Shown: piece after piece, positions 9,062-63,345 of the stretch
Layout: each line of letters begins with the position of its first letter
How positions within the stretch are numbered: position 1 is the first letter of the stretch
Assembly (NCBI GenBank): GCA_937863435.1
Contig: CALMES010000157.1
Span: 1-64,000, forward strand
Direction of reading: 5' to 3'
Length of the DNA: 64,000 bases
Origin: an uncultured Candidatus Peregrinibacteria bacterium
Lineage (GTDB): Bacteria > Patescibacteriota > Gracilibacteria > Peribacterales > Peribacteraceae
Notes under the pieces: model-generated
What the model was told of the DNA's origin: nothing
What the model saw: only the letters and a program-made list of their open reading frames with translations
Databases searched by the model: none
Translations under genes and position numbers: made by a program

Positions 9062-9067
9062 TACAAT
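9062..9067 (+). promoter_or_regulatory. -10 box TACAAT for murL
   Basis: TACAAT overlaps the upstream candidate ATG at 9066 and ends seven bases before the ATG at 9075. It therefore favours 9075 as the true start and a leaderless mRNA. Confidence 0.5.
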
Positions 9068-9074
9068 GAACCCG

Positions 9075-10484
9075 ATGAAGCAATTCACCTCGTTCATCTT
9101 CGATTCCTACTCTTTCGATGCGGCCACGCGCACGATCAGTTTGAACTATGGTTTGGATGACGAGATTCAGTTCACCGAAACAATCACACTGCCGACCGAT
9201 TCGCCGCTTGCAGACTACAATAACGCAGCGCTAGACCGCGCACTTTTTGCCCTGCATATGATCGGCGGGATCAGTTACTACAAAACGTGTTTGCCGAAGA
9301 AAATAGAGATCAAATCGGGTTCATTGAGCAAGGAAGAGGCGGCTTTCTGGAAAAAAGTGTACGAGAATGGTCTGGGTGAGTATTTCTATAAAAATAACAT
9401 CGATTTTCGCGGACTCATTAATTTTCCGATAACGGCAGACACAACACAATCGGAGACCGCGGGCGGGTCCTTCGATACGACTCAGGATAAAAACGCCCGC
9501 TCTGGAGGGAATATTGATAAGAAAAATCAGCAGTCCCAATTCCAAAGCCCCCATTCCAAAGTCCTCGTCCCCCTCGGCGGCGGCAAAGACTCGACCGTTA
9601 CTGTCGAATTGCTCAAAGAAGCTGGTTTCGATTGCACTTTAATCCGAATGGAACCGCATCCGCTCATCGATGTTCTCGCCAAAGAAATCGGCCTGCCGAT
9701 GCTGGAAATCAAGCGATCACTCTCCCCTGCTCTGTTTGAATTGAATAAAGACGGCGCACTGAATGGACATATTCCCATTACCGCGTATTTATCCTTCTTG
9801 CTGATCGTCGTCGGCATTCTGTATGGCTACGATGCAATAGCGATGAGCAACGAGCGCAGCGCCAACGAAGGCAACGTCGAGTTCCATGGAAAAATGATCA
9901 ATCATCAGTGGAGTAAAGGGCTCGAGTTTGAACGCATGCTTCAGAATTATCTGAGTATGACGATTGGCTCATCAATCAAGTATTTCAGCTTACTGCGGCC
10001 ATTATCTGAAATTCACATTGCGAGACTCTTCAGCAAATATCCGCAGTATTTGACCCTCACAACCAGCTGCAACGCCAACTGGAAGATTGTAAAAGAGAAA
10101 TCAGCCGAGAGGTGGTGTCAGCGCTGTCCAAAGTGCGCGTTTGTGTTTGCGATTCTCACGCCGTTCATTCCCAAAAAGACGCTGATGGAGATGTTCGGGA
10201 AAAATTTGCTGGACGATGAGTCACTCATTCCTCTGTATAAAGAACTACTCGGCATAGAAAACTACAAACCGTTTGAATGTGTCGGTACACCGGAAGAAAC
10301 GCTCGCCGCGTTCATTCTGGCACATGAAAATAATGAGTGGAAAGAGGCAGCAGCAATGAAGATGGCGCTGGAAGAAGCCAATTTGCCGGATGACGTGCAT
10401 GGCATGATCGAACAGCAATTCACGCCAGTTGCCGATCACGCTATTCCAAGCGAGTATAAGGGCAAATTCCCCTTCTTTGCGTAA
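9075..10484 (+). CDS. murL: UDP-MurNAc-L-Ala-L-Glu epimerase MurL
   Basis: MurL inverts the terminal L-Glu of UDP-MurNAc-L-Ala-L-Glu to D-Glu, as established for the Xanthomonas MurD2/MurL pair. The 469-residue protein has the family's N-terminal region (FIFDSYSFDAATRTISLNY), a PP-loop-like ATP site VPLGGGKDSTVT near residue 165, AMSNERSANEGN, and the cysteine cluster RWCQRCPKCAFVF. murD2 follows two bases after the stop, which strongly supports the call. Between about residues 118 and 161 there is a low-complexity insert rich in Q, S, N and G (9426-9557) that looks like inserted intergenic repeat DNA. The start at 9075 rather than 9066 is chosen from the -10 box. Confidence 0.88.
   Translation: MKQFTSFIFDSYSFDAATRTISLNYGLDDEIQFTETITLPTDSPLADYNNAALDRALFALHMIGGISYYKTCLPKKIEIKSGSLSKEEAAFWKKVYENGLGEYFYKNNIDFRGLINFPITADTTQSETAGGSFDTTQDKNARSGGNIDKKNQQSQFQSPHSKVLVPLGGGKDSTVTVELLKEAGFDCTLIRMEPHPLIDVLAKEIGLPMLEIKRSLSPALFELNKDGALNGHIPITAYLSFLLIVVGILYGYDAIAMSNERSANEGNVEFHGKMINHQWSKGLEFERMLQNYLSMTIGSSIKYFSLLRPLSEIHIARLFSKYPQYLTLTTSCNANWKIVKEKSAERWCQRCPKCAFVFAILTPFIPKKTLMEMFGKNLLDDESLIPLYKELLGIENYKPFECVGTPEETLAAFILAHENNEWKEAAAMKMALEEANLPDDVHGMIEQQFTPVADHAIPSEYKGKFPFFA
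9426..9557 (+). repeat. repeat-like in-frame insert within murL
   Basis: The inserted DNA contains a hairpin with GCGGGCG and CGCCCGC arms around TCCTTCGATACGACTCAGGA. That loop is close to the reverse complement of the TGAGCGCAGTCGAA core found in intergenic hairpins at 17.9 and 34.6 kb. It ends in word-like repeats such as CCCAATTCCAAAG. The encoded stretch is low-complexity and lies just before the ATP-binding loop. Confidence 0.6.
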
Positions 10485-10486
10485 TC

Positions 10487-11776
10487 ATGCATATCAAAGA
10501 TGTAAACGGCAAAAACGTGTGCATTCTCGGCTTCGGCCGCGAAGGACAGGCAACACTGGCGGCACTCGAACGCTTCGCGCCACAGGCCGAGGTGACAATC
10601 GCGGATGCGAATGAAAATATACAAACAGCACCAGGCAAATACTGGCTGCAGATCGGTTCCGGCTGGCTCAAAAATCTGGATAAATTTGATGTAATCATCA
10701 AGTCTCCCGGCATTCCGCCCAAACCTGAATTCGGGCCAGTGAAAGACAAAATGACCTCTGCGACGCAAATTTTCCTCGAAAGTGTGGCGCCAACCGGCGC
10801 GACTGTCATTGGCGTGACGGGCTCCAAAGGGAAGAGCACGACCAGTTCGCTGATTTACGAAATACTCAAAGCCGGAGGCAAAAATGTATTTCTGGTCGGC
10901 AACATCGGCGTGCCAGCCATCACGTACATCGCCGAAGCGACGCCAGAGACGTACTTCGTCTACGAAATGAGCAGTTACCAGTTGATGGATATGTCCATCA
11001 GCCCGCATATTGCGGTGGTTACGTCGTTTTTTCCCGAACACCTGGATTATCATGGCTCACTGGCTGCGTATATGGATGCCAAAAAGCACATCGCGCGCTT
11101 CCAGACAGAACACGACAAAATATTTTTCAATGCTGAGTGGGCCGGAGCAGCGGAAATCGCACGCGAAAGCAAAGGTCAGCGCATTCAGTACTTGCAAAGC
11201 GAATGCCCGATTGGCCTAAATGAAATCCAGCTTCTCGGTCAGCATAATTTGGCCAATATTACCGCCGCACTGAAAGTCGGTTCGCTGCTACAGATACCGG
11301 AAGACATCATGTTCAAAGCCGTGAAAAACTTCCGTGGTTTGCCACACAGATTGCAATCACTTGGCATGCAGGCCGGTATTGAATGGGTGAATGACTCCAT
11401 TTCCACCACTCCCCAGTCTGCCATGGCCGCGCTCGATGCACTGGACGGAAAAGTGGGAACAATGATTCTGGGTGGCCAGGATCGCGGCTACGATTTCCGC
11501 GAACTCGCTGAAAAGATTGTCCAAAGCCCGCACATCAAGCACATTATTCTGATGCCAGGCAGTGGCGCCACCATTCGTGCAGCTATCGAACATACGCATC
11601 ACACTGCGTTACCTACTCTCTGGAACGCTGCCGATATGAAAGAAGCCGTCGCTCTCGCACGCAAGAACACGCCAAATACATTCATTTGTCTACTCTCCCC
11701 CGCCTCGCCCAGCTACGGATATTTCAAAAACTTTGAGGACAGAGGCGAACAGTTTCGGAGCGAGATACAGGAATAA
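10487..11776 (+). CDS. murD2: UDP-N-acetylmuramoyl-L-alanine--L-glutamate ligase (MurD2)
   Basis: MurD2 is a MurD-type Mur ligase that adds L-Glu (not D-Glu) to UDP-MurNAc-L-Ala; MurL then epimerises it. The 429-residue protein has an N-terminal Rossmann domain (VCILGFGREGQATLAAL), the ATP loop GVTGSKGKSTTSSLI near residue 108, YEMSSYQLMDM and a C-terminal ligase domain (WVNDSISTTPQSAMAAL, ILGGQDRGYDF). Adjacency to murL two bases upstream, rather than motifs alone, distinguishes it from classical MurD. The two genes form an operon. Confidence 0.88.
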   Translation: MHIKDVNGKNVCILGFGREGQATLAALERFAPQAEVTIADANENIQTAPGKYWLQIGSGWLKNLDKFDVIIKSPGIPPKPEFGPVKDKMTSATQIFLESVAPTGATVIGVTGSKGKSTTSSLIYEILKAGGKNVFLVGNIGVPAITYIAEATPETYFVYEMSSYQLMDMSISPHIAVVTSFFPEHLDYHGSLAAYMDAKKHIARFQTEHDKIFFNAEWAGAAEIARESKGQRIQYLQSECPIGLNEIQLLGQHNLANITAALKVGSLLQIPEDIMFKAVKNFRGLPHRLQSLGMQAGIEWVNDSISTTPQSAMAALDALDGKVGTMILGGQDRGYDFRELAEKIVQSPHIKHIILMPGSGATIRAAIEHTHHTALPTLWNAADMKEAVALARKNTPNTFICLLSPASPSYGYFKNFEDRGEQFRSEIQE

Positions 11777-11900: not shown

Positions 11901-12023
11901 ACATGATAAACCGCCGCGCCAAGCATGCCGCTCCTTTTATGTTGGAATAATTAACAGCGATTCGCAAATCGCTGCTGCGGGTTTTATAACTGTGATCTCA
12001 TTGTACATTGTCAATTGTACATT

Positions 12024-12593
12024 CTACATTCCTCCCCCCACCTTCACTTTCGCCGGTCGCAACACTTTACCGCTCAGTTCGTAGCCTTCTTCGAACACTT
12101 CCAAGATTTTCCCTTTCTCGCCGGGGCCTTCCATGAGCACTTCATGCTTGTTGGCATCGGCCATTTGTCCGAGCGCTTCCATCTTCATTAGACCCATACC
12201 AGAGAGCTGCTTCATGAAATCCTGTTCGATAGAAACTACTCCCTTCACCCATTCGTTGCCCGCCAAATCTTGGGGCAAGTGTTTAAAAGCGCGCTGAAGA
12301 TTATCGATGGTCGGAAGCAGGCGGATGAGCGCGCCTTCGGAAGCGTACTTCCGCAAATCGGACGCCTCTTTTTCCATCCGCATTTTGGCATTCTGCAGCT
12401 CGGCTTGCGCGCGAGCCGATGCCTCTTTGAGAGGCTTCATCTGCTCTTCAAGTTCAGCAATTTTCTTCAGCAGTTTCTGTAATTCGTCGTCATTGGCTTG
12501 AGCGTCTTTCATCGCCTGTGCAAGCGGATCATCGTGAGCTGTCTGAGCCTTCTTTTTATCGTCGTCGTTCTGAGAAGAGTGGGCGGGATTCAT
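12024..12593 (-). CDS. grpE: nucleotide exchange factor GrpE
   Basis: GrpE releases ADP from DnaK. The 189-residue protein has a charged, disordered N-terminus, a long coiled coil (about 35-95, AELEEQMKPLKEASARAQAEL), the GALIRLLPTIDNLQRAF helix and the C-terminal beta domain ending VLRPAKVKVGGG. Length and order are typical. dnaK and dnaJ are not adjacent. TGCTATGAT lies six bases before the start. Confidence 0.95.
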   Translation of the reverse strand: MNPAHSSQNDDDKKKAQTAHDDPLAQAMKDAQANDDELQKLLKKIAELEEQMKPLKEASARAQAELQNAKMRMEKEASDLRKYASEGALIRLLPTIDNLQRAFKHLPQDLAGNEWVKGVVSIEQDFMKQLSGMGLMKMEALGQMADANKHEVLMEGPGEKGKILEVFEEGYELSGKVLRPAKVKVGGGM

Positions 12594-17851: not shown

Positions 17852-17985
17852 CATTCTTCGACTGCGCTCAGGATGACACAAGTACCATCGTGAAAGTATC
17901 ATGGTGAGCACAAAGGCTTCATGGTGAACGGAGAGTTGTTATGGTGAACTGAGAGGTGTCATGGTGAGCGCAGTCGAACCATGAC
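17851..17985. repeat. cluster of TGAGCGCAGTCGAA hairpin repeats
   Basis: On the plus strand GTCATGGT-GAGCGCAGTCGA-ACCATGAC (17958-17985) forms a hairpin with perfect 8-bp arms. Facing it at 17851-17880 is a minus-strand copy with different, near-complementary arms. Partial ATGGTGA copies lie between. It separates copA from the convergent oxidoreductase gene and may end transcription. The same core recurs at 34578-34608. Confidence 0.85.
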
Positions 17986-28605: not shown

Positions 28606-28660
28606 CTAGTACCAATGAGATCCTTTGAGTCTTTGAGTCGTCTGAGTCCTTTGCGTCCTT

Positions 28661-34577: not shown

Positions 34578-34608
34578 TGTCACTCTGAGCGCAGTCGAAG
34601 AGCGACAC
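34578..34608. repeat. GAGCGCAGTCGA-core hairpin
   Basis: GTGTCACTCT, core GAGCGCAGTCGA, then AGAGCGACAC: the arms pair apart from one A-C. The core equals that at 17.9 kb, but the arms differ in sequence while staying complementary. Next to it (34615-34662) are CTTTGAGTC/CTGAGTCC word repeats. Confidence 0.85.
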
Positions 34609-34680
34609 GTCCTCTCATCCTTTGAGTCATCTGAGTCCTTTGTTTCCTCTGAGTCCTGTACTTGTGCTAGGCTGTAAAGC

Positions 34681-36897: not shown

Positions 36898-36940
36898 TCA
36901 AAACAACCGCGGCCACGAAGGGCCGCTCTAATATATGAAT
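36898..36940. repeat. AACCGCGGC...GCCGCTCT...ATGAAT repeat
   Basis: AACCGCGGCCACGAAGGGCC, then GCTCTAATATATGAAT. Related elements are at 39759-39800 (AACCGCGGCTAGAAAAGGCG) and 63289-63335 (AACCACGGCTAGAAAAGCCG), each ending in ATGAAT. Confidence 0.7.
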
Positions 36941-37834: not shown

Positions 37835-37918
37835 TGAGAAAGTAGTGTACACTGATTACTCAGTACAAATGAAGACCTCTCTCATTGTACATTGTCAATT
37901 ATCAATTTTACATTCTGC

Positions 37919-38275
37919 ATGTCTCACCGCGGTCCCATGTCGGCTTCTCTTATACGCTCTGTTGTGGCCAAGCACGCGCTGGCCATACCGCCACACATTG
38001 CGCATGTGGTCAGCATTACCGATGTCGAAGTGAGTGCCGATTTTTCGTATGCCGATATCTATGTCTCGGCATTACAAAACGTGGAAGCAGCTATCAAATT
38101 TCTGAACAACAACAAAGGACCCATTCGCAAAGAATTGAGCGGTGGTCTGCGTTCTTTCCGCTTACCACTCCTGCGCTACCACGTTGATACCAGAGGGGAA
38201 CGCGGCAGTAGAATTGATCGATTGCTTGCGGGGGAGAATCCGGACGCGGAAGTAAGAAACAGAGGAAACAGATGA
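37919..38275 (+). CDS. rbfA: ribosome-binding factor A
   Basis: RbfA helps mature the 30S subunit at low temperature. The 118-residue protein has LIRSVVAKHALAIPPHIAHVVSITDVEVSADFSYADIYVSA and LRSFRLPLLRYHVDTRGERGSRIDRLL, in the usual KH-like order. The frame before 37919 is AT-rich word-repeat DNA (CATTGTACATTGTCAATTAT), so the ATG at 37919 is preferred; a second ATG lies six codons later. nrnA follows, a common neighbour. Confidence 0.85.
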   Translation: MSHRGPMSASLIRSVVAKHALAIPPHIAHVVSITDVEVSADFSYADIYVSALQNVEAAIKFLNNNKGPIRKELSGGLRSFRLPLLRYHVDTRGERGSRIDRLLAGENPDAEVRNRGNR

Positions 38276-38380
38276 TGCAGAAGAACCAGAGGATTCTCTG
38301 TTGTATATTTGCTATACATTAATAATTGCACCTCAAGTTCTCACCTAAAATCCTCTGCATCGTCTGGTTCTTCTGGTTCT
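38271..38380. repeat. inverted word repeat GATGCAGAAGAACCAGAGGATT
   Basis: The right part (38347-38380) reads AATCCTCTGCATCGTCTGG then TTCTTCTGGTTC, roughly the reverse complement of the left part in shuffled order. The same words occur at 57868-57903. It lies between rbfA and nrnA. Confidence 0.6.
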
Positions 38381-56424: not shown

Positions 56425-56545
56425 AATAAGAAGAGAAGAACGAATGAAATTTCTATTGATCGCGACGCCATTGTACATTGTCAATTGTTAATTTTACATT
56501 CGCAATTGCTCATCCAAAGAATTCGAAAAACACAGAAAAAGAGCA

Positions 56546-57659: not shown

Positions 57660-57905
57660 TTTTATGACATCAGAAAAATAATCCTTCTTACCATCAGAGC
57701 GGCCGTTCCCGGCCGCGGAGTTTTTAAGAACTGCAGCAAAGCACCGATTCCGATGCCATCTTGAATAATTCCTAATCCTGACGACCTCGCTTGCGCATAT
57801 CTATTTACTGTTTCATCTAACTCATCGGGGCACGGCGTCCCGGCTGCGGCAATCTTGATTATCCCCATCCTCTACATCGTCTGGTTCTTCTGGTTCCTCT
57901 TTATC
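57660..57905. repeat. repeat-filled gap between ruvB and acetate-CoA ligase genes
   Basis: Contains GAGCGGCCGTTCCCGGCCGC (57700 region), GGGGCACGGCGTCCCGGCTG (57826-57845), and CATCGTCTGGTTCTTCTGGT (57876-57895), which matches 38360 region words. No gene is seen in this 340-base interval except the promoter near its right end. Confidence 0.7.
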
Positions 57906-63159: not shown

Positions 63160-63345
63160 ATCCTACAATCTACAGCAGCGGGCGTCCCTGCCCGCAGCAG
63201 CTTATATCACTACACTTTCTGTCACCGGGACGCGACGTCCCGGCCCCTAAGGGGACCCTTTGGGTCTGCGGATGTTTTGATTGATTCGCAACCACGGCTA
63301 GAAAAGCCGCTCTTATCTTTAGAATGAATAATCAAATTTTCCTCT
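63160..63345. repeat. composite GC-rich repeat region
   Basis: CAGCAGCGGGCGTCCCTGCC, CCGGGACGCGACGTCCCGG (63222-63240), GGGACCCTTTGGGTC and AACCACGGCTAGAAAAGCCG ending ATGAAT. The order of elements is similar to 39700-39800 read in part in the opposite sense. Confidence 0.8.

Follow-up and report, generated by a model that had tools for sequence, protein, structure and literature searches.

The murL homologue in the window (the whole 64,000-nucleotide stretch of DNA analysed here) carries, in frame, what is by its sequence a copy of a defined hairpin repeat of the genus, and the composite form of that repeat is itself a multi-copy subfamily. The centre of the linker that contains it is very probably a genus-specific REP-type hairpin that landed in a tolerant, disordered loop, the enzyme gaining a flexible loop in the process. 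A first-pass annotation had described an intergenic hairpin repeat inserted in frame into murL without destruction of the gene; membership of a repeat family, the intact open reading frame (ORF) and the conserved enzyme on either side all bear this out, and the segment lies in frame where it was placed (amino acids 121–164). The element reads, in short, CCGCGGGCG / TCCTTCGATnCGACTCAGGATAAAA / CGCCCGCTCTGGAG, and is restricted to the genus. Coordinates are collected in Table 1.

Table 1 Features of the window, with positions counted from its first nucleotide
Feature	Position	Strand	Remarks
murL homologue	9066..10484	+	intact 472-aa ORF containing the insert
Hypervariable linker	9426..9557	+	44 residues, aa 121-164, PITADTTQSETAGGSFDTTQDKNARSGGNIDKKNQQSQFQSPHS; relatives without counterpart
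Composite REP-like element, arms and core	9455..9508	+	~54 nt, in frame, codes TAGGSFDTTQDKNARSG
5' arm CCGCGGGCG	9457..9465	+	matches intergenic copies
Core GGTCCTTCGATACGACTCAGGATAAAAA	9466..9493	+	replaces the usual CGAA-type loop; 28 nt
3' arm and foot CGCCCGCTCTGGAG	9494..9507	+	recurs in intergenic copies
Weaker repeat-like stretch, CAATTCCAAAGCCCCCATTCCAAAG type	9532..9561	+	30 nt matching C105:15967-15996 of our own genome at 87% (E 0.0017)
ATP-binding PP-loop GGGKDS	9576..9593	+	just 3' of the linker; invariant in alignments
Second variable loop	10086..10112	+	9 aa here (short); repeat-filled in many relatives
TGAGCGCAGTCGAA-type hairpin, family named by the first-pass annotation	17857..17870	-
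TGAGCGCAGTCGAA-type hairpin	17965..17978	+
TGAGCGCAGTCGAA-type hairpin	34586..34599	+
Short-loop REP-like copy	36907..36929	+	outside called genes; covariance model 27.7 bits
Short-loop REP-like copy	57685..57718	-	outside called genes; covariance model 39.9 bits
Degenerate REP-like copy (weak)	63163..63197	-	outside called genes; 20.4 bits, E 0.061

The product of the gene matches NCBIfam model NF041275 over amino acids 4–464 (E 8.6e-132) at 439.8 bits, below the equivalog cut-off of 700 bits, so we call it a MurL homologue without claiming the same enzyme activity; no Pfam profile scored above its own cut-off on MurL. The nearest solved folds are those of QatC and QueC, which are PP-loop proteins, and a murD-like gene begins at 10487, directly after murL. 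Every conserved column of a 39-sequence alignment is intact, and with the linker excluded dN/dS against the murL of a same-genus relative (genome G001) is 0.048, at a dS of about 1.5. As far as sequence comparison can tell, the flanks of the linker are conserved and under purifying selection, and the enzyme presumably still works with the insert in place.

The nearest named relatives of this MurL in GTDB contigs come from Ca. Peribacter/Peribacteria, in keeping with a Candidatus Peribacteria genome. We aligned this MurL with those of 29 relatives (30 sequences, which include our own genome and one genome from outside the family, G045). Both flanks of the linker align well, whereas the linker itself, measured between FP (amino acid 121) and LVPxGGGKDS, ranges from 20 to 58 amino acids; by this measure it is 46 amino acids long here and 26 in G001. 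None of its residues is conserved among the 30 sequences. The first-pass annotation had proposed such an alignment on the grounds that a segment shared by all relatives, with conserved residues, would be a real domain; the relatives lack the segment. The annotation also put the loop just before the ATP site, where it is, with GGGKDS just after the linker. In an AlphaFold model (39 sequences, mean pLDDT of 89), residues 126–161 are the sole segment with a pLDDT of less than 50 and lie immediately before the strand running into the GGGKDS loop; they are thereby predicted to be disordered, while all the rest of the enzyme is modelled with confidence.

The whole segment of around 130 bases had been taken as the repeat. 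As a unit its 132 nt are single-copy in the genome; the repeat proper is the central ~54 nt, which is multi-copy. Its inverted arms, GCGGGCG (9459–9465) and CGCCCGC (9494–9500), stand 28 nt apart, and the CGAA-type loop of the short copies is absent from the murL copy, which has the composite core instead. At least six composite copies occur elsewhere, at C2:295670, C4:3621, C5:75173, C15:26928 and C2:23606 of G001 and at C151:6298 of our own genome. The first of these reads CCGCGGCCAGATCCTTCGATGCGACTCAGGATAAAATGGCCGCTCTGG and the murL copy agrees with it at 44 of 51 positions (counted from the alignment); the murL 5' arm and core match G001:C15:26928-26963 at 92% over 36 nt (E=1.1e-7). The composite copies share a conserved core and 5' foot and vary in their arms, several of them with matching changes on both sides (GGGCG/CGCCC, GGCCA/TGGCC and GGGTA/TACCC). 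The core TTCGATACGACTCAG was rejected as an exact repeat, as it is unique in 59 genomes and only a degenerate core recurs.

Short-loop copies of the form CCGCGGGC-GCGAA-GCCCGCTCTGG number more than 30 in our own species and the same-genus relative together. The pattern CCGCGGGC-N(2-30)-GCCCGCTCTGG has 6 occurrences in our own genome, the murL copy included, and 10 in G001, and is found in 3 of the 59 genomes, the third (G023) having 2 overlapping matches; the reversed pattern is found in none of the 59. The arms surround short CGAA-type loops on contigs C19, C69, C75, C106 and C121 of our own genome and at the ten places in G001. A de novo scan with conserved feet returned 10 copies in 444 kb of our own genome, 10 in 784 kb of G001 and none in 400 kb of a more distant comparison genome, G029, and a control scan with altered feet returned no matches. 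The arms covary at two stem positions, and a covariance model trained with the murL copy left out retrieves that copy at E=4.4e-5 in 1.23 Mb, among 41 matches. Because the patterns were defined after the murL copy had been seen, we place most weight on this model and on the zero controls. In a separate search, at E<=1, there are 22 family matches in our own genome and 36 in G001.

Nearly all copies are intergenic, and several form inverted pairs within about 100 nt, which is the REPIN arrangement. Among 39 covariance-model matches that were placed, murL is the only conserved gene with a clear copy inside it; a further match sits at the extreme start of a called ORF, and a weak one in a long ORF looks like chance. 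Coding context was taken from sampled parts of the genomes, which are MAGs without reads, and genes were called simply as the longest ORFs. Our own genome (G000) is a MAG of 2.14 Mb in 168 contigs; as it is larger than its relatives (0.7–1.7 Mb) and has 5.4% contamination, it may include sequence from some other organism.

Some intergenic hairpins are orthologous between genomes (C121:1629 and C9 of G001, C19 and C2 of G001, C75 and L076) and nearly identical in both species (25/25 at C121) despite saturated synonymous sites, which hints at constraint or homogenisation. The hairpins on C19, C121 and C75 were considered as sites that might be empty in G001; they are filled there too and are thus vertically shared.

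The family is linked to a transposase gene. On contig C106 (28598-29053) a 151-amino-acid protein passes NF047646, the model for REP-associated tyrosine transposases (RAYTs), at 88.9 bits against a cut-off of 80, and has family hairpins on either side; the orthologous RAYT of G001 is flanked by copies in the order - + RAYT - +, so that family copies flank the gene in inverted orientation, as in REPs. RAYT-linked REPs typically have a GT(A/G)G head and usually a high copy number (PMC2817692). In this family no such head stands directly beside the palindrome, the foot being GCTCTGG / CCAGAGC with GTAG often ~6 nt further out, and there are tens of copies, where REPs usually exceed 100 per genome. 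Covarying stems, inverted pairs and the flanking of a RAYT identify the element as REP-type; in view of the head and the copy number, we term the family REP-like and RAYT-linked. The RAYT presumably moved the element.

It is chiefly to this family, CCGCGG...CCGCTCTGG, that the insert belongs, and not to the TGAGCGCAGTCGAA hairpins with which it had first been grouped. Its arms differ from theirs, and the TGAGCGCAGTCGAA core has no match in murL at up to 2 mismatches. The resemblance of the cores does hold, as TCCTTCGATACGACTCAGGA in murL agrees with TCCTTCGACTGCGCTCAGGA of the TGAGCGCAGTCGAA family at 15 of 20 positions; we rejected membership on the arms, and the genome matches the loose pattern TTCGAYNNNRCTCARGA at only three places, murL among them. 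The composite may have arisen by the nesting of a TTCGA..CTCAGGA-type hairpin into a CCGCGG..CCGCTCTGG hairpin. Other repeats in the window are a scattered CATTGTACATTGTCAATTGTACATT-type repeat with three copies (11999-12042, 37883-37926 and 56469-56512) and short-period TCCTTTGAGTC / TCATCTGGTTC repeats (28621-28659, 34610-34657, 38350-38379 and 57858-57905).

We propose that a REP-type hairpin (arms CCGCGG.../...CCGCTCTGGAG, core TCCTTCGATnCGACTCAGGATAAAA) would have landed just ahead of the ATP loop, in a disordered surface loop that tolerates insertions, keeping the ORF intact, so that the enzyme would only have gained a flexible loop. The canonical short hairpin contains no stop codon in any of the six frames and the murL copy has none in the frame in which it is read; the insert would have survived because its arms are stop-free in any frame and its core is open in this one. 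The murL of G001 is without this element and its linker has a different repeat, which rules out direct proof from an empty site; at a dS of about 1.5 the species are too distant for the linkers to be aligned or for an insertion junction to be read. The good match that persists between the murL copy and other copies suggests that it arrived after the split from G001 or, less probably, that G001 has lost it. One point against this proposal is that copies in conserved genes are exceptional in the genus (1 of the 39 placed matches).

It is very improbable that the segment is a domesticated repeat selected as a functional part, whether as an RNA hairpin that regulates the murL-murD transcript or as a useful flexible loop. 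The loop does adjoin the active site in the AlphaFold model, and the intergenic hairpin copies that are nearly identical between species with saturated synonymous sites may be constrained; however, the segment is absent from the same-genus murL and conserved nowhere, and the stability of its hairpin is no higher than that of shuffled sequences (z of -1.07 as DNA and -1.45 as RNA). We dropped hairpin stability as evidence for the element, the fold energy being ordinary. That energy would also suit a fast-evolving, low-complexity disordered spacer whose likeness to the hairpins is a coincidence or reflects shared base composition, as would the lack of linker conservation in all relatives and the existence of long linkers in which no repeats were detected. 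Such a spacer is a very improbable source of arms, feet and a core that all match a multi-copy family with family matches at E 1.1e-7 to 4.4e-5, when reversed-pattern and altered-foot controls give zero and control segments of the same genes have no genomic copies among the matches listed. A false join in murL made by the repeat during assembly or binning is barely conceivable even in so fragmented and contaminated a MAG, as the ORF runs unbroken and in frame across the element, the genome has no second instance of this exact variant, and the element lies mid-contig with MurL sequence on both flanks.

The presence of a repeat in this loop has counterparts in the relatives. In G029 the linker, CHIEPVEMSTRKSMLRQAQHDKK, is formed by a TGAGCCTGTCGAA hairpin, for which the same genome has ~20 more matches, and linkers also have same-genome copies in G016, G024, G032, G015, G023, G004, G017 and G021; for G001, the linker repeat is a single 31-nt match. 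Control segments of equal length from the same genes, and three plain linkers (G022, G010 and G019), had only self-matches among the matches listed. Counted by eye, at least about 15 of the 30 linkers contain same-genome repeats. A second loop, between TSCNxNWK and WCxxCPKCAF, has 11–38 amino acids (median of 21) in Peribacteria compared with 9–11 in 51 non-CPR homologues, and contains same-genome repeats in at least 9 genomes; one loop or the other is repeat-bearing in at least about 18 of 30 MurL genomes (also by eye). Judged from these matches, the occupation of the same linker loop and second loop by unrelated repeats is a recurrent outcome. That the two loops (before the ATP loop and before the cysteine motif) have long been landing sites in Peribacteria, at which unrelated hairpins and tandem repeats replace one another through insertion that is targeted or beneficial and not just tolerated, a conserved cell-wall enzyme thereby renewing two disordered loops again and again from mobile DNA, seems unlikely to us.

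Three genera (G001, G029 and G032) have a common GTGGCTTGCCACGCGAAGC...-type repeat in loop 2 of MurL, from either an old shared insertion or repeated landing. The MurL homologues of two genomes of the same class (G055:C10:21397-22599 and G046:C52:834-1661) contain 13 and 12 in-frame TGA codons, which suggests that TGA is read as an amino acid in these genomes.

Repeats in coding frames extend beyond MurL. In 400 kb of G029 (C3:400001-800000), in-frame repeat k-mers occur in valyl-tRNA synthetase (ValRS), PheT, asparagine synthase (AsnB), a P-type ATPase, glycosyltransferases and MurD. Compared with homologues from our own genome and G001, repeat sequence makes up 57 of 296 inserted residues (19%) and 317 of 40,485 aligned residues (0.8%), a ~25-fold enrichment among inserted residues. 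A search for a Y1 transposase in G029 returned no match, which makes it necessary to assume some other route, or the loss of a transposase, in that genome. Between our own genome and G001, gaps of at least 7 amino acids are rare, with 8 among orthologue pairs at >=65% identity, two of them in MurL.

Small repeats can thus become part of seemingly working proteins. If this is true, in-frame insertion would have supplied much of the insertion variation in the proteins of an uncultured CPR lineage, tRNA synthetases included. MurL would then offer about thirty orthologues whose two loops are differently filled, a natural series in which one can test directly how proteins tolerate mobile DNA and how disordered loops originate. 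Peptides such as CHPEPVEG, LRQAQHDK and PLSRGERG in such proteins would then probably be translated repeats, not domains. In-frame REP and RPE insertions have been described before, in Rickettsia and certain other bacteria; what this case adds is a new phylum, a composite RAYT-linked element and the repeated filling of the same two enzyme loops by unrelated repeats. Our literature search, which left most subscription papers outside, turned up no account of in-frame repeats from Peribacteria or from any other CPR bacteria.

The MurL of Xanthomonadales is a UDP-MurNAc-L-Ala-L-Glu epimerase (NF041275; PMC8788868), to which the Peribacteria protein is homologous over nearly its full length and with which it shares an adjacent murD-like ligase gene; the second loop of non-CPR homologues, unlike that of Peribacteria, keeps to 9–11 amino acids. 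The repeat itself resembles REPs and REPINs with their RAYTs (PMC2817692; REPINs, PMC3116915) in being a short, GC-rich, imperfect palindrome that is mostly intergenic, forms inverted pairs with covarying stems and flanks a RAYT that passes NF047646, and the Pseudomonas putida REP TGTGGGAGCGGGCgTGCCCGCGAA resembles, by eye, the reverse complement of this hairpin. It differs from them in having no adjacent GT(A/G)G head, tens and not hundreds of copies, a long-core composite form and one copy within a gene. The parallel that had been drawn with the Rickettsia palindromic elements (Ogata 2000/2002, as reviewed in PMC10969869) is apt by organisation alone, both being palindromic, selfish-type repeat DNA in frame in a protein-coding gene. 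Those elements are ~150 bp long and encode a conserved peptide in unrelated protein-coding genes, whereas the present one has ~54 nt and, within the genus, a single copy that is clearly coding. Closest in kind are the intragenic GTAG/CGTC REPs of prokaryotes, which lie in frame, and are tolerated, in genes of known function that include tRNA synthetases (PMC3733652). The murL insert is likewise an in-frame REP-type repeat that its gene appears to tolerate, but in other organisms and with other tags, and Peribacteria differ in that two particular loops of a single enzyme have repeatedly been filled by repeats unrelated to one another.
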